IMG/VR virus record: IMGVR_UViG_3300025102_000050
Span: 1 to 50,368 of that record
DNA from: a virus
Direction: 5' to 3' (one strand)
Length of the DNA stretch: 50,368 nt
Shown here: positions 12,697 through 50,368 of the stretch, one piece after another
Layout of the letters: every line of letters starts with the position of its first letter
Position numbering within the stretch: position 1 is the stretch's first letter
The notes under the pieces: model-generated
Databases searched by the model: none
The model's input: the letters and a program-made list of their open reading frames with translations, nothing else
Told to the model about the DNA's origin: nothing
Position numbers and translations under genes: made by a program

Positions 12697-12728
12697 AAGG
12701 GAGTGTCTTTGACGACACTCCCTTTTTT
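12697..12728 (+). terminator. Intrinsic terminator after the capsid gene (palindrome copy 2)
   Basis: The arms AAGGGAGTGTC and GACACTCCCTT enclose the 6-base loop TTTGAC and are followed by a run of six T. This is the dispersed palindrome (12699-12722) put to use as a Rho-independent terminator, 15 bases after the capsid stop. Confidence 0.85.
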
Positions 12729-15457: not shown

Positions 15458-18400
15458 ATGGCAAATTTAAAAAGGAACTTTATAGCAGGCAGAATGAATA
15501 AGGCTGTCGATGAAAGGCTTGTACCTAACGGACAGTATATTGATGCAATGAATGTTAGGCTTGGCTCTACGGAGGCATCAGAAATAGGTTCAGTTGAAAA
15601 CTCAAAGGGAAACACTCAGATTACAGAACTTAAATACAACGGCACAGCTTTAAGCTCTGATGCAAAATGTATAGGAGCGTATGAAGATAGTGCCAACGAA
15701 ACTATATATTGGTTTGTACATGACTCTTCTTTTACAGGGGCAGGTGCGGGAGCCACGGGGAAACTTGACATGATTGTCTCCATGAATGTAAACACAGAGG
15801 TAATTACCTATCACGTCATTAGTGTAAAAAATGGTTCAACAAACAACACCACCTTAAATTTTAACCCTGCATATTTAGTTAATGGCGTTAATATGGCAGG
15901 TCAAGATTTGTTAATTTTTACTGACAATATAAATCCACCAAGGATGATTAATGTTAGAAAAAATTATGAAGACCCTACGGGAGCACCTTTAATAGACCAA
16001 TTTACTGAAGAGGAAATACTTGTAATAAAAAAACCACCTGTCACATCACCTTCTATTCAAACGAATGTAATACCCGGTAATGATGATTTTATAAAAGAAA
16101 GGTTTCTTTGCTTTTCCTATAGATACAGATATGCTGACAATCAATATTCAGCTACTTCTCAGTTCAGTGAGCCCGCTTTTGTACCCGATGTATTTAATGT
16201 AACTATAGCCACTTTTCTAAACGAAGGGATGCAGAATGAAGATAACAATGTAATCATCACTATGGACACCGGTGGCCCGTTAGTCGTTGGTTTTGACTTG
16301 TTATATAAAGAGTCTACCAACTCTGTTGTTAGAGTAGTTCAAAAGTTTAACAAACTTGTAGATGGTATAGCTGACAATACAACGTTTACCTATGACTTTA
16401 GTAATTACAAAGTGTTTACGGTTCTACCGGATTCTGAAATCCTAAGAACCTATGACAACGTTCCATTACTAGCAAGGGCTCAGACCCTTATGGGGAATCG
16501 TCTTGTTTATGGAAACTATGTGGAGGGTTATGACTTGAAAGATAAAAATGGTAACAATGTAAATTTTGATTTCTCCACATCCCTTACTACAAGCGAAGTT
16601 TCTTCTGTTAACTTGGGAACTATATTTGGAAACCGAATATACACTGCAGACCCGTTAGTTGGACCACAGACAATAACCAATTCTACAATGAGGATTTTTT
16701 TGGGACCAACTGCAGGAATAGATTTAACTGAAGGCTCCACACTGTCTTTTGATTTTACAATAAGTCACGCAGCTTTTTCAAGCAGCCCCGGTATGAATAA
16801 TCAGCAACCTCCTGTTACTATTAACTTTGAATACACATTAATTGAAACCTTTTTAACGGATGGCACATCAACTGCTGCATATAAACTAGCGACCTCTGCA
16901 GACTTTTTAAACAAGCTTGGCACATCGCTTCCGGGGGGTACTATGAAGCCTGTATATGACGCTGCAAATCCAACTTCTTGTAGTGGGTTTACACTTTCAG
17001 ACATTATTAACTGTGCTATTCAGAACACATTAGATGCAGGAACGGCGACAGAAAGGACAAAGTTTGAGTCGGGGTATGATGATATCCCCGCTAATGGTAA
17101 CCAAGGTGTAGGTAGTTTGGGTGTATACCCTACTGTTGCAAGTGGTGATGTAACTAACGAATTTATTTTTATTAGTCTTCCTGCAATGCGAAGGGTAGAT
17201 AATGTGTCGTCTCCCACAATAGATACATACGAATATTTTCAGTTTTCAAATCCCATAAATACATTCAGCACTACCAACAATCCGCGCAGTCTACATAGTA
17301 ACAGAAACTATGAAGTAGGTATTATATATATGGATGAGTTTAATAGGTCAACCACCGCTTTGGTAAGTACGAACAACTCTGTTCAAGTGCCTTGTGAAAA
17401 CTCTATATTTAAAAACTCAATTAAAGTAGAAATACCACCATCACAACTTGCACCATCTTTTGCTACAAGATATAAGTTTTGTGTTAAGCCGGACCGAAAA
17501 GATTACGAAACTGTTTTCTCTAACTTTTATGTACAGGACCCCACTAATGGAGATACATATATACTTTTGGAGGGGGAGAATACAAGAAAAGTAGAAGAAG
17601 GTGATACTTTAAATGTAAAAAGAGATTCTGTCGGACCTGTCTTAAATTGTGCAGAGATAGTAGTATTAGAGAAAAAAGCGCAATTAGCAGATTTTATGTC
17701 GGCAAATCCACCGGTGGACTCTACAGGTACACCGATTCCTGTTCCTTCGGGGACATATATTAAAATAGGCGTTGGTAATATCAACACAATAATGCCCGAC
17801 GATGCTACAGTAAACCCCGGTCAAAAAAAGGTAAGCAACAATTCTTCTTCCGGAGACCAACCTCTCATGGCTTATGGTGGACTTGGAGGATTTGATATTC
17901 CCACAAGAGCAAGAATAGTTTTAAAGTTTACCTTTGAAAGACTTGGGACAGGACAGGGAACAAATAACTGCGAGAGAAGAATCTACACCTATGAGCGTGT
18001 TTTCTTTTCAAGCCAAAACTACCCGGACATAGTTGATTGGTTCTTGGGTGATTCTATAGCAAACACTTTGAATAGTGGAGACGCATTTACAGGAAATGGT
18101 AGCACTATTACCAATACATTTGACCCTACTGTTACGTCTTCTCCGGCATCGGACTACGGACTACCGACAGGTAGTTTCACAAACTATTATAGGTGGTTTC
18201 GAAATGGAAGCGACATTAGGTTTGTCATGTTAGGCCCACCAAAATGCGGTAACAGTGAAAAGAAAAGGTCATCTATTCGTTGCGAGTGGCAGATATTTCG
18301 CTCAGAGCAGCTTCTTGTTTTTGAAACACAGCCTGCAGATGCAGCTCCCGACCTGTGGTATGAAGACTCAGACTCTTATGCCATAGACCAATCGACAGGA

Positions 18401-21326: not shown

Positions 21327-22168
21327 CGATAGCAGGATTAGCAATAACAGTGGGAACAACCACCGCTTCATTTATACAAGCAAACAAACAAAAGAATTTG
21401 CAAGAGAATGCTGAAAAAAAAGCAGAACAAGCTATGAAAGATGCTCGTGCGGCTTTGGGCGTTAACTACTTTGAGGACCTTGCTATCAACAAAGAGGCTT
21501 ATGAGTTGGAGCGTGATGCCACCTTACAGGCACAGGCAGGAGCTTTACAGGCACTCCAAGAATCCGGGCAGCGTGGTGTCGCAGGCGGAGTTGGAAGACT
21601 TGCAATAGCAGGACAACAACAGCAGGCAAAAACACGTACAGCTATGGCAAAAGAGCTTGGAGACCTTGAGAAGCTTACGGCCCAAGAGGAGTCACGACTA
21701 CGTGACTTAGGTGTTCAGTTAGACTTAGAGGAGGTTGCAGGGGCACAGCAGGCTGCAGCACAGGCACAAGAGATGCGTGCCGCTAAGATAGGCGAAGGAA
21801 TACAGGGTATTGGAAGCATAGCTCAGCAAGGAATGTCTATGGTCCCATTGTATCAACAAGACCAAGCGGCTCAAGCAGCAGCATTTGGGAAAATGGCACA
21901 AACAACAGAAGGAAGTTCTTTAATTAATCAAACTTTAGGGATTCAAAATATACCTCCGGCTTTACGTTCGCAAATGGAAGCAGCCGAGCTCCCTGTGGGA
22001 GCTTCGCCTGTAAATCCATTTATGACACCAAAACAATTTAGAGGATTCAAAAGAAATCTTACTCCTCAGCAAAGACAAACATTAATGATGAATCCAATGT
22101 TTGCAGACGCATACGGAACTGCTATACAAACCCCGATGCTTGGATATAATCAGCTTAAAACAGACTAA
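21314..22168 (+). CDS. Internal virion/ejection protein, gp14-like (284 aa)
   Basis: The N-terminus is one hydrophobic Gly/Ala-rich helix (GIAIAGLAITVGTTTASFI) followed by a long Ala/Gln/Glu coiled coil (about 25-165). The coiled coil contains the Ala/Gly stretch 'ALQESGQRGVAGGVGRLA', common to T7 gp14-like internal core proteins ('SGV...G.....G.....A'). Such proteins are ejected with DNA and line a channel across the cell envelope. The start overlaps the previous gene by 13 bases and the next gene begins 4 bases on. It forms a plausible trio with the 660- and 3269-residue proteins, as gp14/15/16 do in T7. Confidence 0.78.
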   Translation: MSGIAIAGLAITVGTTTASFIQANKQKNLQENAEKKAEQAMKDARAALGVNYFEDLAINKEAYELERDATLQAQAGALQALQESGQRGVAGGVGRLAIAGQQQQAKTRTAMAKELGDLEKLTAQEESRLRDLGVQLDLEEVAGAQQAAAQAQEMRAAKIGEGIQGIGSIAQQGMSMVPLYQQDQAAQAAAFGKMAQTTEGSSLINQTLGIQNIPPALRSQMEAAELPVGASPVNPFMTPKQFRGFKRNLTPQQRQTLMMNPMFADAYGTAIQTPMLGYNQLKTD

Positions 22169-33100: not shown

Positions 33101-33973
33101 CTTGTCCGGTCGTTTACAATGTTTGGAAGTGTATTGTTCTTACAAATGAATAGAGTGATGCAGTCAAGTACAAATATGAGAAGAGATGCCGCAAGGTCAG
33201 TAGCACTATCTGCGGAGGCGGCGAAACTTGCTGCACAAGGAAAAATGAAAGAGGCTAATCAAAAAAGAAAAGAAGCAGCCAAGGCCGCACCAAAGAGAAA
33301 GGACATCAGAGCATTTGCACTTAATGCTTCACTAGCAAATGGTTTGTTCGTAGCAACAGCCAACCTCGCTAAGTTTATACAGGGAGATAGCGACGACAGG
33401 GATGAGGCTCTTAAGAAAATAAAAGAGGCAATGTTGGGTCTTAATCTTATATATCAGATTCCATTATTAGGTAGTGTTGTAGAGAGACAGATGGGAAATA
33501 GGTTTGCAGGTGATGTTACTAATCCATTTATGAGTATATACTATAAGGTTAATCAAAACTTTGATAAGTATGGATGGACCGGTGTAGCTAAACCTCTTGT
33601 TGAGGTGGTTTTAGGTATGCAGACGGACCCGTTCATAGGGCTTTATAAGATGTTCGGTACTGATGGGGCGGAGTTTGACCAAGCTACCTTAGATGCTTTG
33701 GGTATCAGCAAATCATACGCGCCGAGTGGAGAGACAGCCGCAGAGAAGAAGGCAAGAGAGTCAGAGGGTAAAAGAACCAAGACAGAACAGAAGCAGTATG
33801 AAAGAGACTTGAAGAAGTATAACCTTAGAGAGTACAACAGAAAATACGGAGCGAGAGATAAACGTCTGAAAGAAATAGAAGACCGAAAGAAAAAAAGAAA
33901 TAAAAGTAGAGATAAGCAGAAGAAGAAAAGAGAAGAAGAAATGAAAAGAAGAAAGTTTAGAAGGATTAGATAG
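24164..33973 (+). CDS. Giant polyvalent virion protein (3269 aa) with HExxH protease and GNAT-like domains
   Basis: The largest gene here, in the T7 gp16-like slot. Domains visible in order: a duplicated N-terminal helical motif (LIATAQANGYNW / YVATAENENYNYEVI, 1-65); a conserved phage domain at about 376-460 (VRDNGDGTESTVLM...PTLFPKN...FAAGSWKDV); a Gly/Ala-rich hydrophobic region at about 743-830 that could span membranes; a Glu/Thr-rich low-complexity linker at about 1140-1370 with two palindromes; a coiled coil at about 1370-1500; and an acetyltransferase-like fold at about 1570-1730 (YYAKFGFVPVAKVAW). A zinc-protease motif HEVGH lies at 1848-1852. Long helical arms and a very basic tail follow. 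This fits the large polyvalent proteins injected with DNA; substrates are unknown. It may be processed by its own protease (inference). Confidence 0.85.
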   Translation: MDEQGFNSDNISQVLKDLIATAQANGYNWGETISKFPELQDFDIQLLKDYVATAENENYNYEVINAKFPEFGFSNVDDRNLVVKKKDVGEDSADTSTPFLERIKEKIQDTTVSTSADGSSESVETEEVTEDLTPEQITERQLSGFTFEEDSEKGLSERGLVGLRGVGRLEQSEKLMGAVERAEKEKLDEILNNAARAELAGDLYHAEAGFKEALKYEGGQKIKERLENLQLRIKREKATEKLREREERERAEREKESEEYRNLPQNAELDGKINGISKNTIQQNEEDAQESLNKEFGMFGFNFRQIGWGDALEVMAADGEKMEIDLDTWFDSSAGEEAFKLKKFLRDHAEPPNNFKKGLEDDEIVNAMRVRDMRTGVRDNGDGTESTVLMTYAEVDGQYVAYPTLFPKNPNLRYYGSGADEWLELDADAALDEAEKRNELTWFENEEDAARFAAGSWKDVNTFDYEANRFFGKRGIDYKSYRDALEKYDELKEAEMFLEKRGAMQLKDLPKEEQEKYADFYAAGRIRTDIDEVKEKLARDADNLMEFVNSDELRTVREDFDLYAQDKFNKAAKDAAATNQVAKEQRMELDAESINKFGVRIKDLPKYEPKSKYEFEEINNILTNYDVSIAESQYAASQYEMAKTWFDGKFDKNVRRAFDENWKAVYNSARNGFDNGQAAQEILYMSLGLTDVDDNASLEEAAEIIVAQLEQGQSRAPGRAESRWNSARDFREGWDAFKDDPLEMTATFVAGSLSQIVPYGFKIVPTTLAVGTGTGAAVGSVVPVYGTAAGAVAGFSQGLRMGMGATMYAMEYTNSILDVAREKGYDMMNPSEVVKALQDEEVWEEGGERGHKRGIPIAVVDYLSAGLAGRLFKTSSLSSKGARVSAMVAERAVADPIAEATGEYLAQVNAGQEVSAKEIFAEAVGGFGNNTGAMVVNLYRDYRNTNNVDLANKLSTINGMLSENVSETRMLAWANNMENLGKINAEQAQRIRENLGLKRDAKNVLDINKDTKSNKKTQARVMELLAAEKELTSTTNRKAAFAPKIKEIKAEISEIAETGNVREAGKETNLNVLGTAQATETDVRKDVAKYTINNVSYTKDEFMKRIEKMSKRKILKTRASVKNDEEVSTFLKNKVDAIQEQEAGTVPANQQTGDIQTVEETVREVPSETEQSETTETERVEEKQPTFEDLSEVDQQEYLKKAEKNLKQKQRVTLGQRLRRFGAKTFRGAKVKYAKKTELTQEQIKEEAVKMFELDNKPQVEETTTTQETVATEEVSSETPNKEAVEELGRIVDEEFGTQPVETTTQEEVVQEKVSPTTPTETVVEQEVQEEAAPVVEEEVTTEEGPIDEGDVMLTQEQIDEQVAEEAAPVSEETQSKREEIEAEIADIENNELEDLEMNLENIQEEIQNEKENYKEEAQRIKEEKAKVRKDKTLSKQKKQDKLDDLEAERDGFMNDRDAAIENYQFDLSEAKREARKAKSRIAKLKKKLDSGLDFKRKTVNLKDEVQDKRRTDRSSERGTDSARTSSTRDVKGKSRYDVGESNRVVRDDTVVNTVSLSENEAQALSENMEGKAVVDTEFYETNDANLFHKSITESTKNNKYAASVFVYPVSDYKNSRLFLTADGKAGLAITEDGDIISVFSYGEGKGRVPQLIVNAIKEGAVSLDHYDTVLTKYYAKFGFVPVAKVAWNNDFSPDNWSKETFKDFNNGEPDVVAMVYDGGNRQTIAERVGKFEEVKTKLQEAPYVVEWDEAKALQAKRNEELQKPITLKEEAKSVDNLNQMTDFMNKAFPNVEMSTDQQTFDTVINSDRVRTYLRKGDIVYGVTVDGDVYINPDVHNSQSEMFDTAIHEVGHVWQNYLQTTKKGKQLYRKGVELVQQTEEFQKQLKEFDGDIEAAAREAMAILIGNKGEKIASQSLKAQFKEWLNTMWEFIRSQFKLSEDLTVEEIQDLTIDSFLGTALADIFSGKELKITEVAQKQMKNPEVVFSRTAPIFDVIDRGRRLGFTDAEIREVLKERGFSTGNINEALTVGIVNETRPMPRAFEKVEGGIDEARQLFDETQETVRQFSIMGPRGGVSGRRARNKTFSQIRQKAQETLKANPIFQRQPEQVQQEILLGYDQSLYRDFDAQGPIRSNRRVEAEMAKIRETLKQRKIGKKNLKEAQIRLKNYIRQSLPDTPYTRGAIQRINKLLVDSTVDNFEAKIEKVEIEIRNARARMKAETVTGILDILKKKSKVKITKSGKRRGAGVNAATQLYFKAVLPIVEDIVDLARARAGMQSLQSKIDQRVFDINNQIDKVNENPRLSAEEKAAKIQELEAKKRSTKAEAKSISNTQTRIEEAESKIQKLRDKLNDPEVKQQIDEALLIQEQNPLTADKILTTKQQKLLAEVQALDNFSPIQGMTLEETNALLNTLKDMSSQSIAQLKAENTVRRQRRADKAKKVRAQIQETNPELFDENGNPLDTNELNAKKDEVRTVLQEKGFFAASLEWVKSTFKFDTFKDYIRSAKNTVSNIQTLTNIADRITEGKSVFTDNIYKAFNRMDENNNRGLLETRKKIDRIATSAGIVGGIKGVKRRLATGVHRMKLISNKKGKQTTYTKAFNADQLMRIYALSLNDVQRAKLENQGIGKEQLQEIKNILGPDVVQFTEGIVNFLSNEYYEQVNSVYAQVNNVNLGFIENYFPTQTISPKVDGGMLENGDFSGIFNSETAPAFKQREDLKSDINLTEASFMETLENHTQTMEKFMAYAEGVREMNDFFSIPEVNLLLKEAKISRMLKHLINQAINPASLNGGPSNKLLSAFQSKFTSFALSFKVIQILKQASSFINAFEDYSYRGNGKRYIPGMDTLGFMFDAATTILSLPLDLFGMNGPIHQAMEMSATFKRRVEQGIEGDVYGLESGSKTFKNVNKESSRFKKARALIRTAAASPTVLGDILGVMGYMINYKRNIKNGMSKAEAVEAFNEYNATQQSRRGSDKIALQFSNNALVRSFTMFGSVLFLQMNRVMQSSTNMRRDAARSVALSAEAAKLAAQGKMKEANQKRKEAAKAAPKRKDIRAFALNASLANGLFVATANLAKFIQGDSDDRDEALKKIKEAMLGLNLIYQIPLLGSVVERQMGNRFAGDVTNPFMSIYYKVNQNFDKYGWTGVAKPLVEVVLGMQTDPFIGLYKMFGTDGAEFDQATLDALGISKSYAPSGETAAEKKARESEGKRTKTEQKQYERDLKKYNLREYNRKYGARDKRLKEIEDRKKKRNKSRDKQKKKREEEMKRRKFRRIR
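27986..28001. repeat. Dispersed palindrome copy 5 (imperfect), inside the giant gene
   Basis: Arms GTGTC/GACAC around GTCAGA; the inner pair is mismatched. It encodes VSSETP in the Glu/Thr-rich linker, with the core in phase GTG|TC. Confidence 0.7.
28103..28118. repeat. Dispersed palindrome copy 6, inside the giant gene
   Basis: Arms GTGTCG/CGACAC around CCAA. It encodes VSPTTP in the same linker, 117 bases after copy 5 and in the same phase. A local duplication of linker plus palindrome is possible. Confidence 0.8.
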
Positions 33974-33990
33974 TGTCCTCAACGACACTA
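33971..33990. repeat. Dispersed palindrome copy 7, joining two convergent stop codons
   Basis: Arms TAGTGTC/GACACTA around CTCAAC. The first three bases are the TAG stop of the + strand giant gene. The last three are the TAG stop of the - strand nuclease-like gene. One symmetric 20-mer therefore ends both convergent operons and may act as a two-way terminator. Confidence 0.88.
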
Positions 33991-36319: not shown

Positions 36320-37769
36320 CTATCAAAGATAGCAAATCTCTTTTGAAGTGACGAATCGTATAATCCTTCTTCTTTGATACCGCTTTATATATCTCATGCT
36401 CTATACCTCCTTTAGAGAACACCCAATACACATCGCTTTTTAGTCTATCCTTGGTTGTCATTCTATCTCTGCTCTGCCAATATGAGGTAGCACTAAAGTC
36501 TATATTATAGTATACCAAGGCATCGGCATTTCGCAAAGATATTCCCTCTCGTCCCGATACAATTTGTAGCGCGATAGACTTGTTAGTGTCGTTAAAGACA
36601 CTCAAGTCTGTGGTCAAATAGTCTGTTCCGTAGACACCCATTAAAACCTTTAGTTCCTGTTTAAACTTATAGAATATTCCTATTTTCTTGTCCTTAAATG
36701 TATCTCTAATATACTCTGCTTTACTATCATCCAATGTCATAGTCTTACCGCTCTCAAACTTTACGGTTCCGGAGTGTATCTGATGTATTTTAGACATTAG
36801 TTTTACAGGTGTATCTGCAAGTATAACCTCATCTTTACCTTCAACAACAAGATTTTGTTTAAGGTTTTTAGCAATAGTATGAATAATAGGTTTCATCTCT
36901 ACAAGCAGTATGTGCTCTTTAGTTTCCACTTTGAAACCTGCCTCAGATTGCGTGTAATTTATTGTATAAGGACTCACTGCCTGCACTATAGTATCATACC
37001 CCTTGGAGTAATCTCTAATTGTCATAGAATTGATTCTTCTTTCTGTTACATTTACATAGTCATCACAGAATCTGTAGAAGTTCTTGTACTGACTGAACGG
37101 ATTTGTTGGTATCCCATACACTTGGTGGTACATCTGCGAGTATGACTCCGGTGTTGGTGTTCCCGACAGTAGGATAACTTTACTTCTGTTCTTTCGTATC
37201 AATTCTTTCACAGCCTTGGCCCTATTACTTGGCTTTGGGAATGCGCCCATTGAATGTGCCTCGTCACATACAATCACGTCCCATTTCAAATCGGGAATCT
37301 TATGTATAGACTCGTAGTTAATTGTGAACAAAGCAAAGTTGGTGGGGCACATTTTGGTATAATCATCACTGATAGAGCCTATGGCTTTCTTCTTTGTGAG
37401 AAACAATACGTTATCAACATTCAGTTGTTGACATATTCCTAGACTCGTGAGCGTCTTACCTGTCCTCACTTCCATAGCAAGATACAAGAATCCCTTCTGT
37501 TTTACTATCTCAGTTCCTTTGTGTATGATTTCTTTTTGGTAATCTCTAAGTTCTATCACGTCTTGCTTTTTGTAATATTCTAAACTATTTTTAATTCTCT
37601 GCTTGACCTCATCTGAAACTTTATGAAGAGGCACGTCAACCATAACCGCTGACTTGCCTCGTCCTCTTTTTACTTGATGTGTTTTAGATACTACCTTGTC
37701 AATAATTCTGCAGTATTTCAACATCATCTCATTGCTGTACGAAGGTCTTCTCTTTATGATATCGTTCAT
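36276..37769 (-). CDS. SNF2/DEAD-like superfamily 2 helicase (497 aa)
   Basis: ATP-driven DNA translocase. Motifs: ELRDYQKEII (Q-like, about 73-82), Walker A MEVRTGKTL (99-107), DEAH box VIVCDEAHS (169-172), motif III ILLSGTPTP (199-207), and a C-terminal lobe with SGREGISLRNADALVYYN. That lobe continues with the arginine-finger region YWQSRDRM. This is the phage SNF2-type replication or recombination helicase that goes with VRR-NUC. A dispersed palindrome is translated in frame as SVFNDT near residue 390, between the two lobes' conserved blocks, where a loop is likely. It ends overlapping the VRR-NUC gene. Confidence 0.9.
   Translation of the reverse strand: MNDIIKRRPSYSNEMMLKYCRIIDKVVSKTHQVKRGRGKSAVMVDVPLHKVSDEVKQRIKNSLEYYKKQDVIELRDYQKEIIHKGTEIVKQKGFLYLAMEVRTGKTLTSLGICQQLNVDNVLFLTKKKAIGSISDDYTKMCPTNFALFTINYESIHKIPDLKWDVIVCDEAHSMGAFPKPSNRAKAVKELIRKNRSKVILLSGTPTPESYSQMYHQVYGIPTNPFSQYKNFYRFCDDYVNVTERRINSMTIRDYSKGYDTIVQAVSPYTINYTQSEAGFKVETKEHILLVEMKPIIHTIAKNLKQNLVVEGKDEVILADTPVKLMSKIHQIHSGTVKFESGKTMTLDDSKAEYIRDTFKDKKIGIFYKFKQELKVLMGVYGTDYLTTDLSVFNDTNKSIALQIVSGREGISLRNADALVYYNIDFSATSYWQSRDRMTTKDRLKSDVYWVFSKGGIEHEIYKAVSKKKDYTIRHFKRDLLSLIGDGTANTDEKDTGT
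36585..36602. repeat. Dispersed palindrome copy 8, inside the helicase gene
   Basis: Arms AGTGTC/GACACT around GTTAAA. On the coding strand it reads AGT GTC TTT AAC GAC ACT, giving SVFNDT as in copies 3 and 10. Confidence 0.85.
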
Positions 37770-40511: not shown

Positions 40512-40734
40512 TATTATTGTTGTTAGTGTTGAGTTGATGTTGACTTTGTGTAAAGTTTCTCTCTGATTATCAGTGAGTTGTATACTTTGTTAACTTTTTT
40601 CTCTTGTATTAAAGAATAATAATAATAAAAGAAAAGAAATAATAAAAGATATACTGATAAAAACTTTACATCTTAACGTTGAAAAAAAGAGTGTCGCTGA
40701 CGACACTCCCTTTTTTAAACTAAAATCGACCAAT
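40512..40734. other. AT-rich inverted-repeat region, candidate replication origin
   Basis: A gene-free gap of 223 bases. TGTAAAGTTT at 40549-40558 is repeated inverted at 40661-40670, and TTATCAGT at 40565-40572 is repeated inverted at 40653-40660. The two arms are therefore nearly identical apart from an 8-base insertion. Between them lie runs of A/T-only trinucleotides (TAATAATAATAATAAAA). The gap sits between SSB-like and primase-helicase genes and ends at terminator palindrome copy 9. Long inverted repeats around an easily melted core suggest an origin, but they could also be primase operators. Confidence 0.5.
40682..40716. terminator. Bidirectional terminator with palindrome copy 9
   Basis: Arms GAGTGTCG/CGACACTC around CTGA at 40689-40708, preceded by seven A and followed by six T. 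It can therefore form a hairpin plus U-tract on either strand. On the - strand it ends the recombination transcript 27 bases after the SSB-like gene. Confidence 0.85.
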
Positions 40735-45197: not shown

Positions 45198-45599
45198 CTA
45201 TTCCGTTATTAGTTCGTGATTGTCATCGAAGACTCTTGCATCTTCGCCATACCTAACCACAACATCTCCGTTGTATATCCAAGGGCCACCCTTTTTGTCT
45301 TCCTCGCTCAATGTTTCGTGGTGGGCAAGGTCTGACTCACTGAAGTAGGAAACCTCGTTACCATCTTCCATGTTGAGACCTATACAAATTTTGTAGTACC
45401 CCCATCCCGTTGGTATCTCTACACCTATCCAAGTTGGTGATGCTTCGTTGATTATAACCTCGTGCTCATCTGCTACCTCTTGCAGGTAGTTCTCATCAAA
45501 TTCAACCTCTCCTTGCAGGTATCCTATGATTCTTTCTTTTGATTCCATTGGAAGTATATGCTTATCAATAAAATCTTTTTTGTTCATTACCTTTTTCAT
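45198..45599 (-). CDS. Hypothetical protein (133 aa)
   Basis: Not recognised. The start is set at 45599 (MKKVMNKKDFIDKHILPMES) since the longer frame to 45635 would be read through palindrome copy 12. The middle carries 'GVEIPTGWGYYKICIGLNME' and 'ESDLAHHETLSEEDKKGGPW', and the end a strand pair (GDVVVRYGEDARVFDD). Soluble and acidic. First gene after the palindrome in the transcription direction. Confidence 0.68.
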   Translation of the reverse strand: MKKVMNKKDFIDKHILPMESKERIIGYLQGEVEFDENYLQEVADEHEVIINEASPTWIGVEIPTGWGYYKICIGLNMEDGNEVSYFSESDLAHHETLSEEDKKGGPWIYNGDVVVRYGEDARVFDDNHELITE

Positions 45600-46452: not shown

Positions 46453-46878
46453 TTATATTACCCAACCTTCTTGAAGATTAAATTTATTTATCTCATAATC
46501 TGATACGTATGCTGATATCAACCACGAGTCATCACATTCAGACATGTGCTTCTTGGATTTTCCGTAGTCTATACTTACGCTTCTACCCAATAGAGAGTTT
46601 AACTCTGATAAAAAATCAGACACCTCTTCTATGTTTCCTTTAAAGAAAGTGCTTATCTGTTTATCATAACCCTCTTCAAATTTATTCTTTGTTAGGTCAA
46701 GTAGATTCATCACGTCTCCTATCGCATACTCCTCCTCACATCCCATATACTTATCCTCTAGGTGCTTACGTCTCTCCTCTAAGATTTCTTTTAGGTAATC
46801 AATTCTACCGATTACATCTTCTTCGCCTTGAATAGCCCCTGCTATTTCTTCTGCTGTTAATTTAATTAATGATTTCAT
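46453..46878 (-). CDS. Hypothetical helical protein (141 aa)
   Basis: Not recognised. Mostly helical, with an acidic N-terminal region (SLIKLTAEEIAGAIQGEEDV), a charged central coil (LKEILEERRKHLEDKYMGCE) and 'RSVSIDYGKSKKHMSECDDS' near the end. It is the first gene downstream of hammerhead element 1, so its mRNA would begin with the ribozyme's 3' product, a leader of about 65 bases. Confidence 0.68.
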   Translation of the reverse strand: MKSLIKLTAEEIAGAIQGEEDVIGRIDYLKEILEERRKHLEDKYMGCEEEYAIGDVMNLLDLTKNKFEEGYDKQISTFFKGNIEEVSDFLSELNSLLGRSVSIDYGKSKKHMSECDDSWLISAYVSDYEINKFNLQEGWVI

Positions 46879-46900: not shown

Positions 46901-46949
46901 CCGTTTCATCGTTTTCGAATCATCAGCCGGGACACACATCCCGATACGG
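46901..46949 (-). ncRNA. Hammerhead ribozyme, type III, element 1
   Basis: Read on the - strand: stem III CCGU/ACGG, cleavage triplet GUA, stem I UCGGGA/UCCCGG closed by a UGUGUG loop, core CUGAUGA (46926-46920), stem II UCG/CGA with AAAA loop and a U-U pair at its base, then GAAA. Predicted cut lies between 46945 and 46944. All three stems differ in sequence from the other two elements but keep pairing. It lies between the GATase-GGCT gene and the 141-residue gene, 2 bases after palindrome copy 13 in the RNA. Confidence 0.88.
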
Positions 46950-46951
46950 GA

Positions 46952-46973
46952 GGAGTGTCGTGCACGACACTCC
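46952..46973. repeat. Dispersed palindrome copy 13, next to hammerhead 1
   Basis: Perfect 22-base palindrome: GGAGTGTCGTG and its complement CACGACACTCC. Its flanks ACGGG (46946-46950) and CCCGT (46973-46977) are also complementary, and ACGGG includes the complement of hammerhead stem III. Confidence 0.88.
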
Positions 46974-47008
46974 CCGTTTGAGTCAGACTAAAACTTACTA
47001 AAATCTGA

Positions 47009-48130
47009 CTACGTGTACCATTCTCCACAGGTCTCGCAGTAGTAGTTACCCCAACCGTCGAATGCGAAGTTGTTGGAATTGCACTTTACATTACTGCACT
47101 GCTTCGGGGTACTGAATGCTGTACCTTTGTCGTCTGCGTTGCAGTCGTCGAACAGGTCTGCAATCTTAGTGACCGCAGGCTTTGTAACAGGCTTCCTGTA
47201 TGTTTTAGTGTACGTACTTTTGCTGTTGAATGAATAGCCCTTGTAAGGTCTATACTCCTGCGTGTAGGTCTTTAAGAATTTGTGATGAGGCTTTAGTTCC
47301 ACCGTTGGATTGAAGTACAACCAACATAAAATCTCTTTACCCTTGACCATTACGGTAATCTGCTCGCGCTTGTACCATATCGGGTGACCTTCAAGGCTGT
47401 CAACGTTCTCGAAAGTTTGGTCTGATACCTTGAACACATCCACCTTAATGTTATGACCTATGCCGGGCTTGTTTATCACATACGGCAGGCCGTCTTTGAT
47501 TAGAGGGTATTTGTTTTTGGTCTTACCACCGCCTACATATTTTGAGCCTTTAAGATAGTGGTAGTAGTTGCTGTACCCTTTCTTTAGTGTACCATACACC
47601 GCTATGACGTTTGTTTCCAAGACGTTTGCTTTTGAGAACCATACACCGTCGTGATACGTAAACAATTCCCTGTTGTAGATTTGGAACGAACGATTGCGCG
47701 TGTTTATTGAAACAAACCTGCAATAGTTGAGCGCGTTCGAATCTTGTATTTTAAGGTGCTCTTTCCAATACTTGCGGGGTATATCCCCAAGTTCATTCGC
47801 CAACTCTTGCGAGTCAGTCACCTTGTCGTTTCCATATCCCCAAGCGGTTCCGTTCATCATTAGAAGTTCATCCGTCTTCGCTCCGCATACGAATGGGTGC
47901 GTATTCTCTTTGGATATCTTTCCAACCGTTGCGTATCTGAAGTGCGCTATAAACGGGCGGTGCTTGTTCTCATCTGAGGTCAATACACCATACTCCTTTG
48001 AGTCGTGTCGTGTTACCTCGAACGTGTCTAGCCATACTATGCCTAGTCCATGAGGGTTCTTCCTTGCGCTTGTTTTAGCCACCTCGCGAGATAGTGGTTT
48101 GTCTTTTTGTTTTACGATAATTACACACAT
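47009..48130 (-). CDS. GATase II-GGCT-zinc ribbon fusion protein (373 aa)
   Basis: Three domains. 1-170 is a class II glutamine amidotransferase (Ntn hydrolase): Cys2 becomes the nucleophile after Met removal (MCVIIV), with R65 in IAHFRYATVG and N93-G94 in LMMNGTAWG. About 175-290 is a gamma-glutamyl cyclotransferase/AIG2-like domain: AVYGTLKKG (177-185) and the catalytic Glu E247 in VDSLEGHPIWYKRE. The C-terminus is a zinc ribbon (C345, C350, C365, C368). Families of this type occur with amidoligases in predicted peptide-modification operons, and an amidoligase is encoded at the end of this window. It has its own promoter and a structured leader upstream. Confidence 0.88.
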   Translation of the reverse strand: MCVIIVKQKDKPLSREVAKTSARKNPHGLGIVWLDTFEVTRHDSKEYGVLTSDENKHRPFIAHFRYATVGKISKENTHPFVCGAKTDELLMMNGTAWGYGNDKVTDSQELANELGDIPRKYWKEHLKIQDSNALNYCRFVSINTRNRSFQIYNRELFTYHDGVWFSKANVLETNVIAVYGTLKKGYSNYYHYLKGSKYVGGGKTKNKYPLIKDGLPYVINKPGIGHNIKVDVFKVSDQTFENVDSLEGHPIWYKREQITVMVKGKEILCWLYFNPTVELKPHHKFLKTYTQEYRPYKGYSFNSKSTYTKTYRKPVTKPAVTKIADLFDDCNADDKGTAFSTPKQCSNVKCNSNNFAFDGWGNYYCETCGEWYT

Positions 48131-48146
48131 AATTATTTAGTTTTGT

Positions 48147-48208
48147 GGGCGGTCTCGTTGTCGATACCGAGCCCTGTTGGTGAGCGGTGCTTGTGTAGGT
48201 GACCGCTC
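48147..48208 (-). other. Structured mRNA leader of the GATase-GGCT gene
   Basis: Two hairpins fill the leader between promoter and start. GAGCGGT/ACCGCTC sits at 48182-48208. The second is GGG plus CTCG with CGAG plus CCC at 48147-48174, which can alternatively fold as GGT-TCG/CGA-ACC at 48151-48168. Alternative folds close to a start codon suggest a regulatory leader; no known riboswitch or ribozyme core was recognised. Confidence 0.5.
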
Positions 48209-48237
48209 GTCTACCTGTGTTTTGTTTATGATTTATA

Positions 48238-48268
48238 CAAGTATACGACATAAATTTGACAATTCCAA
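48238..48268 (-). promoter_or_regulatory. - strand promoter of the GATase-GGCT gene
   Basis: On the - strand TTTG (48268-48265) and TATACTTG (48245-48238) are 19 bases apart, the usual Bacteroidetes spacing between -33 TTG and -7 TAnnTTTG. The -7 box has one mismatch. The transcript would start near 48230, giving a leader of about 100 bases. Confidence 0.6.
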
Positions 48269-48291
48269 ATTTTGCAGTATTTTTTTTTTTA

Positions 48292-48309
48292 GTGTCTTTA
48301 AGAAGACAC
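48292..48309. repeat. Dispersed palindrome copy 14 (tandem)
   Basis: Arms GTGTCTT/AAGACAC around TAAG, 2 bases longer than most copies. Next to copy 15, so this gap holds two in tandem, downstream of the 106-residue gene and upstream of the GATase promoter. A run of ten T lies beside it on the + strand. Confidence 0.78.
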
Positions 48310-48311
48310 CT

Positions 48312-48329
48312 AGTGTCTTCAACGACACT
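48312..48329. repeat. Dispersed palindrome copy 15 (tandem)
   Basis: Arms AGTGTC/GACACT around TTCAAC. It lies 6 bases after the stop of the 106-residue gene in transcription direction and 2 bases from copy 14. Confidence 0.85.
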
Positions 48330-48335
48330 CCTTCA

Positions 48336-48656
48336 TTAATACCATACCTCATCCAAGTCGCAGTCTTCCTGCTTACATACTTTGTCTATGTACGCGCGCA
48401 TGTGTTTCCTGTTATCGAATGTTTTATTCACGTACTTGTCTGTCCCGTTCGGCATTCTGAATTTTATCTGCGCCTGTATTGAGTCGGTGCTTTCTTCTCT
48501 CTTTGTCATTAATTTTTTCACGTAATTAATAGTGTCGTATGCCTGTGCTATCTTTCCCTTCAACATTTTTTCGCTGTCGTCAGTGAAATGGTATTCCTCA
48601 TTCAAAACATTCATTGCCTTCTTGAGTCTTTCGATTTTCTCTTTATTGCTTGTCAT
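48336..48656 (-). CDS. Hypothetical protein (106 aa)
   Basis: The start is set at 48656 (MTSNKEKIERLKKAMNVLNE), overlapping the stop of the upstream small gene (TAATG). It has an N-terminal helix pair and then a strand-rich half (SIQAQIKFRMPNGTDKYVNK) ending KQEDCDLDEVWY. Not recognised. It is the last gene before the tandem palindromes, within the amidoligase-GATase stretch, so a link to that system is possible but unproven. Confidence 0.65.
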   Translation of the reverse strand: MTSNKEKIERLKKAMNVLNEEYHFTDDSEKMLKGKIAQAYDTINYVKKLMTKREESTDSIQAQIKFRMPNGTDKYVNKTFDNRKHMRAYIDKVCKQEDCDLDEVWY

Positions 48657-48832
48657 TACTTTAGTTTTTTTATTGTTAGTTCTTTTCTCTGCAGTGTAGG
48701 ATATTCCTGCCGGAGAATTGTAAACGCCTTGTCTATGGCCTCCCATTTGGAGTGACCGGAGAGGGACATCCCTCTCCAATCTCCTAACCTGCGCTTGCAG
48801 GTTATGTGGTAGTAAAATTGTCTTTCTACCAC
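48656..48832 (-). CDS. Small protein (58 aa) overlapping three hairpins
   Basis: GTG start at 48832, overlapping the stop of the 34-residue membrane gene (GTGGTAG). It reads MVERQFYYHITCKRRLG, then DWRGMSLSGHSKWEAIDKAF and a helical, basic end. An inner ATG at 48769 would give 37 residues. Three consecutive hairpins (48758-48777, 48786-48803, 48806-48832) lie within its first 25 codons and include both possible start codons, so translation may be controlled by folding. Not recognised. Confidence 0.5.
   Translation of the reverse strand: MVERQFYYHITCKRRLGDWRGMSLSGHSKWEAIDKAFTILRQEYPTLQRKELTIKKLK
48758..48832 (-). other. Three tandem hairpins around a start codon
   Basis: On the - strand: GTGGTAG pairs with CTACCAC (48832-48806), AACCTGC with GCAGGTT around a 4-base loop (48803-48786), and GGAGAGGG with CCCTCTCC around AUGU (48777-48758). 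The last places an ATG exactly in the 4-base loop with a purine-rich, SD-like stem 5' of it. This looks like an RNA-folding switch, or a separate structured RNA rather than coding. Confidence 0.6.
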
Positions 48833-48930
48833 GTGCCCAAAATTATTTGAGCAATCGTGTACCCTCCGAATCCTACAACGAGGGGTGTAATTGCGATGAG
48901 CGTTAACTCAATCTTTTTAAGTGTCTTCAT
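48826..48930 (-). CDS. Small membrane protein (34 aa)
   Basis: Starts MKTLKKIELTLIAITPLVVG and ends AQIILGTW. One hydrophobic helix with a basic N-terminus. The stop overlaps the next start. It begins 29 bases after hammerhead element 2 and would be the first gene of that ribozyme's 3' product. One of four very small membrane proteins in a row, between the amidoligase and GATase genes. Confidence 0.6.
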   Translation of the reverse strand: MKTLKKIELTLIAITPLVVGFGGYTIAQIILGTW

Positions 48931-48958
48931 GTGTTTGAATTTATGAAGGTTTGTAAAT

Positions 48959-49007
48959 CCGTTTCAACCTTTTGGTATCATCAGTCAGTGCACACACACT
49001 GAAACGG
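48959..49007 (-). ncRNA. Hammerhead ribozyme, type III, element 2
   Basis: - strand reading: stem III CCGU/ACGG, cleavage triplet GUU, stem I UCAGUG/CACUGA with UGUGUG loop (six perfect pairs), core CUGAUGA (48984-48978), stem II ACC/GGU with AAAA loop and a U-U base at the junction, then GAAA. Predicted cut between 49003 and 49002. It lies between the 31- and 34-residue membrane protein genes, 2 bases after palindrome copy 16 in the RNA. Confidence 0.88.
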
Positions 49008-49009
49008 CA

Positions 49010-49031
49010 GGAGTGTCGTTGAAGACACTCC
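49010..49031. repeat. Dispersed palindrome copy 16, next to hammerhead 2
   Basis: Arms GGAGTGTC/GACACTCC around GTTGAA. The outer CGG (49005-49007) can pair with CCG (49031-49033) past a small bulge, so the palindrome stem can be extended by the strand of hammerhead stem III. Confidence 0.85.
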
Positions 49032-49037
49032 CGGTGC

Positions 49038-49133
49038 TTACGTTTTATCCTGCTTGCACATCCATAGGAAAAGACCTATGTTGATTGCAAAGAACGATAT
49101 AACAAACACTATCTTAATGGTTTCTTCGCTCAT
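49038..49133 (-). CDS. Small membrane protein (31 aa)
   Basis: Starts MSEETIKIVFVISFFAIN and ends FLWMCKQDKT. A short acidic N-terminus, one hydrophobic helix and a basic tail. The ATG follows the upstream stop by one base. It is the last gene of the segment before palindrome copy 16 and hammerhead 2. Similar tiny proteins may act as small inhibitors of host envelope functions, but this is only a guess. Confidence 0.6.
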   Translation of the reverse strand: MSEETIKIVFVISFFAINIGLFLWMCKQDKT

Positions 49134-49134
49134 C

Positions 49135-49293
49135 TTAGTGTAGTTTATAGGTTTTAATTATGTTGTCTAATCTTTGTTGCTCTCGCTTTGCAATCTCAAC
49201 TGAATTAAACACTTGTAAAAGCATTCCGAATGCGATTATCAATATCACTACCGCAATTCCGAAGCCTACTTTTGTCTCTGTGTCGTGTCTCAT
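49135..49293 (-). CDS. Small membrane protein (52 aa)
   Basis: Starts MRHDTETKVGFGIAVVILII and ends NIIKTYKLH. One hydrophobic helix (about residues 9-27) followed by a charged helix (SVEIAKREQQRLDN). It overlaps nothing, but has gaps of only 1 and 2 bases to its neighbours and an A-rich leader (ACCAATAGAGATG). A possible holin- or spanin-type shape, but far from the lysis cassette. Confidence 0.65.
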   Translation of the reverse strand: MRHDTETKVGFGIAVVILIIAFGMLLQVFNSVEIAKREQQRLDNIIKTYKLH

Positions 49294-49295
49294 CT

Positions 49296-49490
49296 CTATT
49301 GGTTTTTATTTTGGTTTCTACTTTGCTGTGATGCTTCAAAGATGCACCCCCACATTATCAACGTTGTTAGTCCTGCAACAATTAATAGGCCGTTACAATT
49401 TAGGTGTATCGCCTGCTCTATCGACAGGAGAGAAAATACTCCGCATACTACCGCGAACATACATAGGAAATCAAATTTTAAGTTTTTCAT
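49296..49490 (-). CDS. Small membrane protein with two helices (64 aa)
   Basis: Two hydrophobic segments, about residues 6-24 (FDFLCMFAVVCGVFSLLS) and 34-51 (GLLIVAGLTTLIMWGCIF), joined by a short polar loop and ending in a basic/polar tail (EASQQSRNQNKNQ). It is the first gene downstream of hammerhead element 3 and leads the run of four small membrane proteins. A superinfection-exclusion or envelope-inhibition role is conceivable for such clusters. Confidence 0.7.
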   Translation of the reverse strand: MKNLKFDFLCMFAVVCGVFSLLSIEQAIHLNCNGLLIVAGLTTLIMWGCIFEASQQSRNQNKNQ

Positions 49491-49511
49491 CTTATAAGTT
49501 TTATTAAGTTA

Positions 49512-49562
49512 CCTGTTTCGTCCTTTTGGACTCATCAGCGTAGGCACACACCTACGGACAGG
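49512..49562 (-). ncRNA. Hammerhead ribozyme, type III, element 3 (canonical)
   Basis: The most canonical of the three. - strand reading: stem III CCUGU/ACAGG, cleavage triplet GUC, stem I CGUAGG/CCUACG with UGUGUG loop, core CUGAUGA (49538-49532), stem II GUCC/GGAC with AAAA loop including the usual G-C base at the junction, then GAAA. Every conserved nucleotide is present. Predicted cut between 49557 and 49556. It lies between the amidoligase gene and the first small membrane gene, 3 bases after palindrome copy 17 in the RNA. Confidence 0.93.
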
Positions 49563-49565
49563 AGA

Positions 49566-49587
49566 GGAGTGTCGGCGAAGACACTCC
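49566..49587. repeat. Dispersed palindrome copy 17, next to hammerhead 3
   Basis: Arms GGAGTGTC/GACACTCC around GGCGAA. CCTGTC at 49588-49593 is complementary to GACAGG at 49557-49562, which is the 5' strand of hammerhead stem III plus the cleavage-site base. The RNA end left by cleavage could thus fold back exactly to its last base. Confidence 0.9.
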
Positions 49588-49596
49588 CCTGTCTTA

Positions 49597-50368
49597 TCAA
49601 TTCAACCCTGCGTTATCCTCGTTCGTTCTGTAACGAGTCCCTCGTTCACGCGCTAGTGCTCTAGTGTAAAAACGTTTCATTGAACCCACGGACCGGTGCG
49701 CATACCTAACATTGTCACCTTCAAAGTATTCACGTGTAACCGAACATACTCGATTGTTGTTGATGGCTTTCTGAAAGGCCTTGGCGAGTGTTAGAATGTT
49801 TTCTACCTCTTCAGCGGTGCTGTACATTCTTTTGAGTATTGGGGTGATTCTTTTCAAAAAAGAAGCATGAGTCTTTCCTGCGTGATTCACTCCGTAGTTT
49901 ACTAACTCAAAGAACAATTCGTATCTGCGAATCATGCCTTTCACTGAGGTGATGCGCGCAGGCAATCTAAACTCGATGCCGTGACCGGTGTTCTTCACCA
50001 CGCAATATTTCGTGCCGTACTCAAAATCATTAGAACCCCAACCCTCTGAAGTGTTAAGAAATGGATTACCTAAACAGTAGTAATTAGATAATCTGTATCT
50101 AAACAGTGCGAGAATAATACCGCTGTAAGGTCTTATGGCCTCGAGTAATTGCGTTCCGTTCATCCCATCGACACTTAGGTGCGTATGCGTGGAGCATGTG
50201 GAGTTAGAAGGGCTGTCACTGTCTTCAATGACTCTGCTAGCCTCGTGAAACATATTGAAGACTTTAGACCTCCAATGTGATTTTGGCAATAGCGGTAGTA
50301 CGTGCGTGATTGCCTCTAGGCCACAAGTAGAATCTGTTTCGAAACCCTTAAAGAGCGCGTACTCCTTA
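49597..50368 (-). CDS. Amidoligase-like (Amidoligase_2, COOH-NH2 ligase) enzyme, 5' part beyond the window
   Basis: The open frame continues to the window edge: upstream of the first TTG it reads LFKGFETDSTCGLEAITHVL. The true start therefore lies outside, and the product is longer than the 230 residues from the TTG at 50289. The motifs fit the Amidoligase_2 glutamine synthetase-like fold: DSTCGLEAIT (acidic nucleotide/metal site), CSTHTHLSVDG (His pair) and GHGIEFRLPARI (EFR strand), then a basic helical end. Such enzymes join amino groups to carboxyl groups using ATP and occur with GATase II and GGCT enzymes, as here. Hammerhead element 3 follows the gene. Confidence 0.82.
   Translation of the reverse strand, partial: KEYALFKGFETDSTCGLEAITHVLPLLPKSHWRSKVFNMFHEASRVIEDSDSPSNSTCSTHTHLSVDGMNGTQLLEAIRPYSGIILALFRYRLSNYYCLGNPFLNTSEGWGSNDFEYGTKYCVVKNTGHGIEFRLPARITSVKGMIRRYELFFELVNYGVNHAGKTHASFLKRITPILKRMYSTAEEVENILTLAKAFQKAINNNRVCSVTREYFEGDNVRYAHRSVGSMKRFYTRALARERGTRYRTNEDNAGLN

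Follow-up and report, generated by a model that had tools for sequence, protein, structure and literature searches.

Three type III hammerhead ribozymes (elements A, B and C) lie exactly between genes on the minus strand of a viral DNA of 50,368 nt (IMG/VR record IMGVR_UViG_3300025102_000050; this whole stretch is hereafter the window). We consider it probable that they are genuine hammerheads that cut a polycistronic phage transcript at gene junctions, splitting a long message into single-gene pieces, and their placement is shared by hundreds of relatives. Neither the hammerhead class nor its occurrence in phages is new: a near-identical ribozyme has been known from phage PaP3 since 2011, and an RNA from this phage was reported to self-cleave (Perreault et al. 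2011, PMC3088659). What hammerheads do in bacteria and phages has been called an open question (PMC6155905; PMC7151607).

Structure and detection of the three elements

The initial annotation had placed three such elements on the minus strand, with type III topology, a complete core, GUH cleavage sites and a location between same-strand genes, and all of this is borne out by the sequence (Table 1). Each element runs from CUGAUGA through stem II and its loop to GAAA, with the core C3 U G A N G A9, G12 A A A15.1 and U16.1 intact, loops capping stems I and II, and stem III open. Stem I is UCGGGA/UCCCGG in A, UCAGUG/CACUGA in B and CGUAGG/CCUACG in C, the corresponding stems II are UCG/CGA, ACC/GGU and GUCC/GGAC, and stem III is, as annotated, CCGU/ACGG in A and B and CCUGU/ACAGG in C. 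The cleavage sites GUA, GUU and GUC place the predicted cuts at 46945/46944, 49003/49002 and 49557/49556, respectively, so that the 5′ products would end where the annotation expected.

Table 1. Hammerhead elements, associated hairpins and neighboring genes in the window
Feature	Position	Strand	Remarks
Gene ahead of hammerhead C (frame open at the window edge)	49597..50367	-	Amidoligase-like motifs only
Hairpin GGAGUGUC-UUCGCC-GACACUCC	49566..49587	-	3 nt 5′ of hammerhead C
Hammerhead C, type III	49512..49562	-	Rfam RF00008 45.6 bits; family model 73.6 bits
64-aa ORF	49296..49490	-	ATG 21 nt after hammerhead C
31-aa ORF	49038..49133	-	Stops just ahead of hairpin and hammerhead B
Hairpin GGAGUGUC-UUCAAC-GACACUCC	49010..49031	-	2 nt 5′ of hammerhead B
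Hammerhead B, type III	48959..49007	-	Family model 69.3 bits
34-aa ORF	48826..48930	-	ATG 28 nt after hammerhead B
373-aa protein with a class-II glutamine amidotransferase-like region and a gamma-glutamyl cyclotransferase (GGACT) domain	47009..48130	-	Stops before hairpin and hammerhead A
Hairpin GGAGUGUC-GUGCAC-GACACUCC	46952..46973	-	2 nt 5′ of hammerhead A
Hammerhead A, type III	46901..46949	-	95.7% identity over 47 nt to Pseudomonas Bruynoghevirus hammerhead; family model 70.0 bits
141-aa ORF	46453..46878	-	ATG 22 nt after hammerhead A

The compensatory changes described for stem I are real: partners match in all three elements, and 62 relatives show overwhelming covariation in all three helices (score 0.965 vs. 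0.238 shuffled). For stem II the annotated pairing holds for the inner three pairs, but a U-U mismatch at 10.1/11.1 in A (CUGAUGA-U-UCG..CGA-U-GAAA) and B (CUGAUGA-U-ACC..GGU-U-GAAA) went unnoticed; among the three, only C has a Watson-Crick pair (G-C) there. As this pair is absent from A and B, we file these as a type variant and not as standard members; the pair is highly conserved but not strictly defining, and active natural U-U cases have been published (PMC3088659). The initial annotation had also overlooked the hairpin ahead of each element and the PaP3 ribozyme. Its claim of fixed loops (UGUGUG in loop I and AAAA in loop II of all three) extends to the whole family, in which both are nearly invariant, and weak L1.3-L2.3 and L1.4-L2.3 coupling is consistent with a tertiary contact between them, without proving it.

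The covariance-model search suggested as a check had a divided outcome. A model of the wider family, the training set of which includes the three window elements themselves, matches exactly these three places (in descending order of score, E = 1.5e-21, 2.4e-20 and 4.1e-20), the next place reaching 11.7 bits (E = 0.36). Rfam 15 scored only positions 49510-49564 (RF00008, 45.6 bits, E = 6.7e-7), below the gathering score of 48.5, and elements 46901 and 48959 were absent from its matches in the window; at the gathering threshold it likewise found none in seven hammerhead-bearing relatives. The subthreshold result says more about the limits of the model than about the RNAs, and much of the phage hammerhead family is missed at standard Rfam thresholds. 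Blast comparison of B and C with phage sequences returned no convincing ribozyme. The pattern CTGATGA-N6-20-GAAA occurs in the window at the three elements and one other place (0.70 expected), and the full motif scan had no match in 100 shuffled strands, although this stricter scan itself recovers only 49512 of the three. Judged by sequence, structure, covariation and placement, the elements are genuine representatives of a known ribozyme class that show a new pattern of variation, and are predicted to self-cleave.

Relatives and known systems in the same position

We collected at least 424 distinct relatives (counts that rest on the second viral pattern scan and the TGTGTA scan are lower bounds). 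They occupy same-strand gene gaps a median of 24 nt ahead of a start codon: an ATG opening a frame of at least 30 aa lies within 45 nt downstream of 350 of the 408 testable relatives (vs. 313 of 1,224 random positions), a same-strand ORF stops within 150 nt upstream of 486 of 591 elements, and every copy is on one strand in 144 of 145 multicopy loci. The flanking genes are unrelated, their products falling into 304 distinct protein groups downstream and 217 upstream, a diversity indicating that the ribozyme is not tied to one gene and ruling out a gene-specific role. A hairpin of at least 8 bp is found within 45 nt upstream of 96 of 213 relatives as against 28 of 611 controls, and where hairpins have at least 6 bp, 97 of 149 abut stem III exactly. 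The hammerhead-linked hairpins were rejected as intrinsic terminators because they lack a U-run (at least 5 T of 8 in 1 of 115 GTGTC hairpins). A switch in which sequence 5′ of the hairpin pairs with stem III, apparent in 49512 and 46901, was also discarded (6 of 209 vs. 7.9 in shuffles).

In the window itself, the 373-aa protein matches Pfam PF06094 (7.7e-20) and PF13230 (1.7e-4) together with phrog_2520 and phrog_4736. The family of the gene at 49597-50367 recurs upstream of hammerheads in related phages; its product has no match in Pfam, NCBIfam or PDB, and an amidoligase identity was not accepted, as it rests on motif resemblance and a profile comparison with the PaP3 amidoligase was not significant.

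Related Flavobacteriia phages carry type I hammerheads and pistol ribozymes in the same slot. The pistols (RF02679), between gp046 and gp045 of Cellulophaga phage phi19:3 and between gp005 and gp006 of Tenacibaculum phage Gundel_1, extend as here from a stop codon to ∼20 nt before the next start, although their fold differs from that of the window hammerheads. Three unrelated ribozyme architectures thus share one intergene slot of related phages, suggesting that gene-junction cutting is probably the selected feature, and since the slot is shared by cultured phages with cultured hosts, the idea of mRNA processing is directly testable. Such phages include an Elemovirus of Flavobacterium sp. BAL314, with a hammerhead at 17868-17918 of NC_055853, phi19:3 of Cellulophaga baltica, which has a type I hammerhead as well as a pistol, and the Bruynoghevirus phages of P. 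aeruginosa PAO1. A search for Twister ribozymes gave no match, nor did its positive control. The sequenced relative closest by terminase (MW202828, 77%) has no recognizable ribozyme copy, indicating that the lineage can do without the elements.

The PaP3 hammerhead (45418-45468) has the topology, core, stem I, loop I, U-U 10.1/11.1 and A17 of element A. Like the window elements, it and its Bruynoghevirus counterparts stand immediately ahead of a start codon; however, there the start codon adjoins or enters stem III, each genome has one strong copy and no GTGTC hairpin in place of three copies with hairpins, and phage and host are unrelated to the window phage. The hammerhead of the tobacco ringspot satellite (sTRSV) shares stems III and II with element C and has a similar loop I, with GUGA instead of AAAA in loop II. 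Its derivative RiboJ, placed in a 5′ leader, roughly doubled transcript abundance and increased protein two- to tenfold (PMC6206723). The hairpin follows the ribozyme in RiboJ, whereas in the window it precedes natural, multicopy elements located between genes; by placement only, their position ahead of start codons fits RiboJ-like leader trimming. The triple hammerheads flanking ardA in Agrobacterium tumefaciens resemble the present case in that several of them surround short blocks of genes within phage-related DNA; a part in transcript processing was proposed for them, and cleavage was seen in vitro and in Escherichia coli, but the available excerpt reports neither a hairpin-hammerhead-start codon unit nor the coupling described below (PMC3088659). 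In the same study, phage RNAs with multiple hammerheads cleaved in vitro, and the hammerhead of haloviruses HF1 and HF2 lies 13 nt ahead of a start codon, as in the window, but is a halophile core variant present once per operon; an HF2 transcript begins within 3 nt of its cut (PMC3088659).

Coupling of base 17 with 10.1/11.1

The strongest coupling outside the helices is between base 17, at the cleavage site, and pair 10.1/11.1: C17 goes with G-C, A17 with U-U, and U17 with A-A or U-U. Base 17 is never G among the 424 relatives listed, although the wider scan admitted G. We found no earlier description of this coupling in the literature. Secondary misfolding was rejected as its cause, because native-fold probability shifts only slightly and would favor U17. 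One possibility, which we put forward tentatively, is that natural hammerheads form matched catalytic subtypes with alternative active-site or metal-site arrangements, defined by this three-state set and combined per operon, that tune rate or ion dependence. If physical, the coupling would add a constraint on the most studied small ribozyme and account for a mismatch called surprising in 2011.

Probable gene-junction cutting and its alternatives

We strongly infer that elements A, B and C self-cleave. The upstream mRNA would then end in a strong hairpin plus 6-9 nt with a 2′,3′-cyclic phosphate, and the downstream mRNA would begin with a 5′-OH and the stem I and II hairpins, the ribozyme ending 21-28 nt from the start codon. 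The likely purpose would be separate, defined, end-protected mRNAs from a single transcript, made without terminators, promoters or host RNases, which would make the elements a natural analog of RiboJ, a synthetic insulator. A gain in mRNA stability, translation or insulation would follow, we infer, although the cut ends might hasten decay instead of slowing it. Counting against junction cutting, longer-context RNA folding prefers competing structures for B and C, and the best conserved pair of stem II is missing from two of the three window elements.

That missing pair could instead mark slow or ion-dependent switches, U-U/A17 elements being slow and G-C/C17 elements fast, which would set the balance between full-length and cut mRNA for each gene. 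Both classes occur together in this operon and at many other loci, G10.1 is part of a metal site in standard hammerheads and a natural core variant shifts Mg/Mn preference (PMC7151607), and U10.1-U11.1 is unusual but tolerated (PMC3088659); against this, paired and mismatched classes have no clear association with hairpins, and we regard such conditional cleavage as unlikely. It is less likely still that the elements chiefly mark borders of gene cassettes, their hairpin-hammerhead-leader repeats allowing gene swaps by homologous recombination with cleavage secondary. One relative does have an extra gene, hairpin and hammerhead between homologous hammerhead/leader copies, and flanking genes are unrelated from phage to phage, but single copies are common, and stem I is free to change its letters as long as it still pairs, a pattern that protects RNA structure and not DNA identity.

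Hammerhead ends are substrates for RtcB-type ligases and several ribozymes flank the same genes, so that ligation of the cut RNAs into circular or spliced products, as in retrozymes and viroid-like RNAs, may be envisaged. This is the least probable of the readings considered: circularization by phage ligases was rejected, as 41 hammerhead phage records contained no RtcB or RNA_ligase domain (controls were detected; host ligases are possible), and earlier authors looked for spliced or circular products without finding any (PMC3088659). Hardly more probable is that A and B, with their U-U mismatch, have decayed into inactive remnants and 49512 alone works, as might be supposed from the normally superior conservation of 10.1-11.1 among stem II pairs and from the lack of an Rfam score for 46901 and 48959. 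At least ∼173 distinct U-U relatives retain core and pairing and are nonrandomly matched to A17 or U17, and the only strong hammerhead of PaP3, a phage from which RNA was reported active, is itself U-U/A17 with the stem I of element A.

Hammerhead elements in the window and their precedents

The initial annotation placed three type III hammerheads on the - strand (elements A, B and C in the table). Its coordinates are correct, each element having a type III core, three stems and a valid cleavage triplet (GUA, GUU and GUC), and its cut sites agree with the positions computed from the sequence. The Rfam models it had proposed as a check recovered element C at 45.6 bits, below the gathering score, and left A and B unmatched. 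Simple pattern searches of the window returned the three elements and one further place, with 0.70 expected by chance. A search with R1, a covariance model built on the wider hammerhead family, returned exactly the three elements at 69-74 bits, scores that are partly by construction because the R1 training set includes these copies; the informative part is the gap down to the next best place (11.7 bits). We regard the three elements as type III hammerheads with near certainty, and all three very probably self-cleave. The letters of element C resemble those of sTRSV. A weak Rfam match to HOTAIR_2 at 37602-37672 (-) (22.5 of 60 bits, E 0.32) is almost certainly due to chance.

Over 47 nt, element A (46902-46948) shares 95.7% identity with sequences in a dozen Bruynoghevirus-type records; 54 more records match it at 90-95%. 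Pseudomonas phage PaP3 carries GTCGTATCGGGATGTGTGTCCCGGCTGATGATTCCTAAAGGATGAAACGAC at 45418-45468, with a U-U mismatch at 10.1/11.1 (the first stem II position), A at the cleavage-site base 17 and the orf71 ATG directly after. Perreault et al. 2011 (PMC3088659) count a PaP3 hammerhead as one of the active variants and comment on mismatches of the U10.1-U11.1 type; the RNA tested there is very likely this element. There is thus precedent for the hammerhead class, for its occurrence in phages and position ahead of genes, and for the 10.1/11.1 mismatch, which two of the three window elements share (A and B). In Pseudomonas phage Clew-1 (locus L117, 1012-1063) the hammerhead runs into the first early gene, whose start codon lies within predicted stem III, and stem-loop II holds an AAAGGA motif; PaP4 has the same 3' letters and arrangement. 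Because of this combination, cleavage might expose the start codon in both phages.

Family-wide covariation and coupling at the cleavage site

A pattern in which both loops and the core were fixed, with base 17 and all stems left free, matched 116 stretches in viral contigs, and further scans extended the family to at least 591 hammerheads (at least 424 distinct) in at least 499 loci, with one to five mostly clustered copies per whole record. The covariation of stems claimed for the window holds across 62 diverse copies, where standard pairs make up 96.5% of pair cells and the score is 0.965 vs 0.238 for shuffled and 0.07-0.12 for slid controls; 10.1-11.1 is the only pair that often fails (30/62). 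Same-loop type III hammerheads also occur in contigs assigned to Patescibacteria and other uncultured bacteria; one of these contigs (L227) contains four copies, and AAAGATCTTT or a closely similar sequence follows each. No paper in the open-licence literature searched combines "crAss-like" with "hammerhead ribozyme", and a description may exist elsewhere.

When mutual information is computed for 347 copies of standard layout among the matches listed (effective number 94), all variable Watson-Crick stem pairs rank highest, followed by 17-11.1 and 17-10.1, which exceed all remaining non-helical pairs. Among the matches listed, viral copies with G-C at 10.1/11.1 have C17 in 156, A17 in 34 and U17 in 3, those with U-U have A17 in 146, U17 in 19 and C17 in 5, and those with A-A have C17 and U17 in 13 each and A17 in none. 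Over all 424 distinct copies listed, C17 with U-U is observed 5 times (76 expected), A17 with A-A never (12 expected), and a base 17 complementary to 10.1 in 328 (179 expected). The trend is the same with and without a Shine-Dalgarno-like leader; copies in cellular genome contigs are fewer and more loosely coupled (U17 in 8/20 with G-C).

By a folding check, secondary misfolding fails to account for the coupling. The main alternative to a physical link is common descent of a few sub-lineages. When each cluster contributes a single copy (37-43 sequences), Fisher p values for the coupling range from 1e-4 to 7e-10 in the six samples listed, and in three near-identical pairs (L249/L252, L087/L065 and L184/L336) all three positions have changed together. 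Among close pairs, joint changes are about four to five times as frequent as the product of single changes, but because pairs share members this ratio is no formal test. In standard hammerheads G10.1 belongs to a metal site (PMC7151607), which hints at a possible metal-site explanation. A physical link between 17 and 10.1/11.1 is possible, though less likely than not.

Placement at gene junctions

Among the matches listed, an ATG of a frame of at least 30 aa begins within 45 nt downstream in 350 of 408 distinct testable copies vs 313 of 1224 random positions (median distance 24 nt in an earlier subset), and all copies share one strand in 144 of 145 multi-copy loci. The same-strand upstream gene typically ends 20-40 nt 5' of the ribozyme. 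Flanking genes, which form 304 unrelated groups downstream and 217 upstream (among the matches listed), mostly encode small unknown proteins, besides AAA ATPases, VWA-like proteins, ArdC-type anti-restriction proteins, GGACT and glutamine amidotransferase; a role bound to a single gene function is therefore unlikely. At gene junctions the ribozymes probably serve to separate mRNAs and to protect them. In the window, ribozymes flank a glutamine amidotransferase/GGACT gene (47009-48130) and a gene (49597-50367) of a family recurrent upstream of hammerheads in related phages. GGACT also lies upstream of the hammerhead in several relatives, and amidoligase and GGACT genes occur at other places in the PaP3 genome.

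A perfect hairpin, GGAGUGUC-N6-GACACUCC, stands 2-3 nt before stem III in each window element. Hairpins of at least 8 bp occur in the 45 nt upstream of 96/213 copies vs 28/611 controls, and 97 of 149 hairpins of at least 6 bp touch stem III exactly. After cleavage such a hairpin would lie near the new 3' end. A terminator function was rejected, with a U-run in 1 of 115 hammerhead-linked GTGTC-type hairpins. The palindrome GTGTC-N6-GACAC is found 425 times in 377 hammerhead loci vs 17 in shuffles, scattered within and between genes and mostly lacking a U-run.

Features in the window and in related records
Feature	Location	Strand	Remark
Type III hammerhead, element A	window 46901-46949	-	predicted cut after 46945
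Type III hammerhead, element B	window 48959-49007	-	predicted cut after 49003
Type III hammerhead, element C	window 49512-49562	-	predicted cut after 49557
Palindrome GTGTC-N6-GACAC	window, 17 places, e.g. 5560-5579, 12697-12724, 33971-33990, 40689-40708, 48292-48329		
Same-loop hammerheads, uncultured bacterial contigs	L224, L225, L227, L228, L240, L241, L243, L245, L249, L252, L255, L260, L264, L268, L280, L285, L290		
Type I hammerhead, phi19:3 gp051/gp050 gap	NC_021789 about 21770-21824	-	below Rfam thresholds
Type I hammerhead, phi18:3, similar to that of phi19:3	NC_021794 about 21927-21956	-	below Rfam thresholds
Type I hammerhead directly before ATG	viral record L527 near 1506		below Rfam thresholds
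Pistol ribozyme, Cellulophaga phi19:3 gp046/gp045 gap	NC_021789 20369-20436	-	46.5 bits, above Rfam cut-off
Pistol ribozyme, Tenacibaculum Gundel_1, fills gp005/gp006 gap	NC_062747 2564-2642	+	65.6 bits, above Rfam cut-off

Related phages and other ribozymes in the same slot

By terminase comparison the window is nearest a spring-water podovirus genome (MW202828, 77%), then Flavobacterium Elemovirus isolates (47%), followed by Maribacter, Cellulophaga and Tenacibaculum phages. Among the viral records with ribozymes that were examined, 33 of 38 score above the family cut-off for a crAss-type muzzle protein domain; the three Pseudomonas phages do not. Each of the six Elemovirus genomes searched contains a single type III hammerhead (40.9 bits), shortly upstream of the gene that opens the leftward operon. 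The trait is patchy among relatives, since the search of MW202828 gave no recognisable hammerhead copy. Three ribozyme architectures share one slot, which suggests that selection favours cleavage at gene junctions, and the Elemovirus, Cellulophaga and Tenacibaculum isolates offer a practical test system. The type I hammerheads of phi19:3, phi18:3 and L527 all lie at gene junctions. Stem I of the phi19:3 copy apparently overlaps the final codons of gp051 together with its stop, and the feature tables of the phi19:3 and Gundel_1 records list only CDS at the pistol sites.
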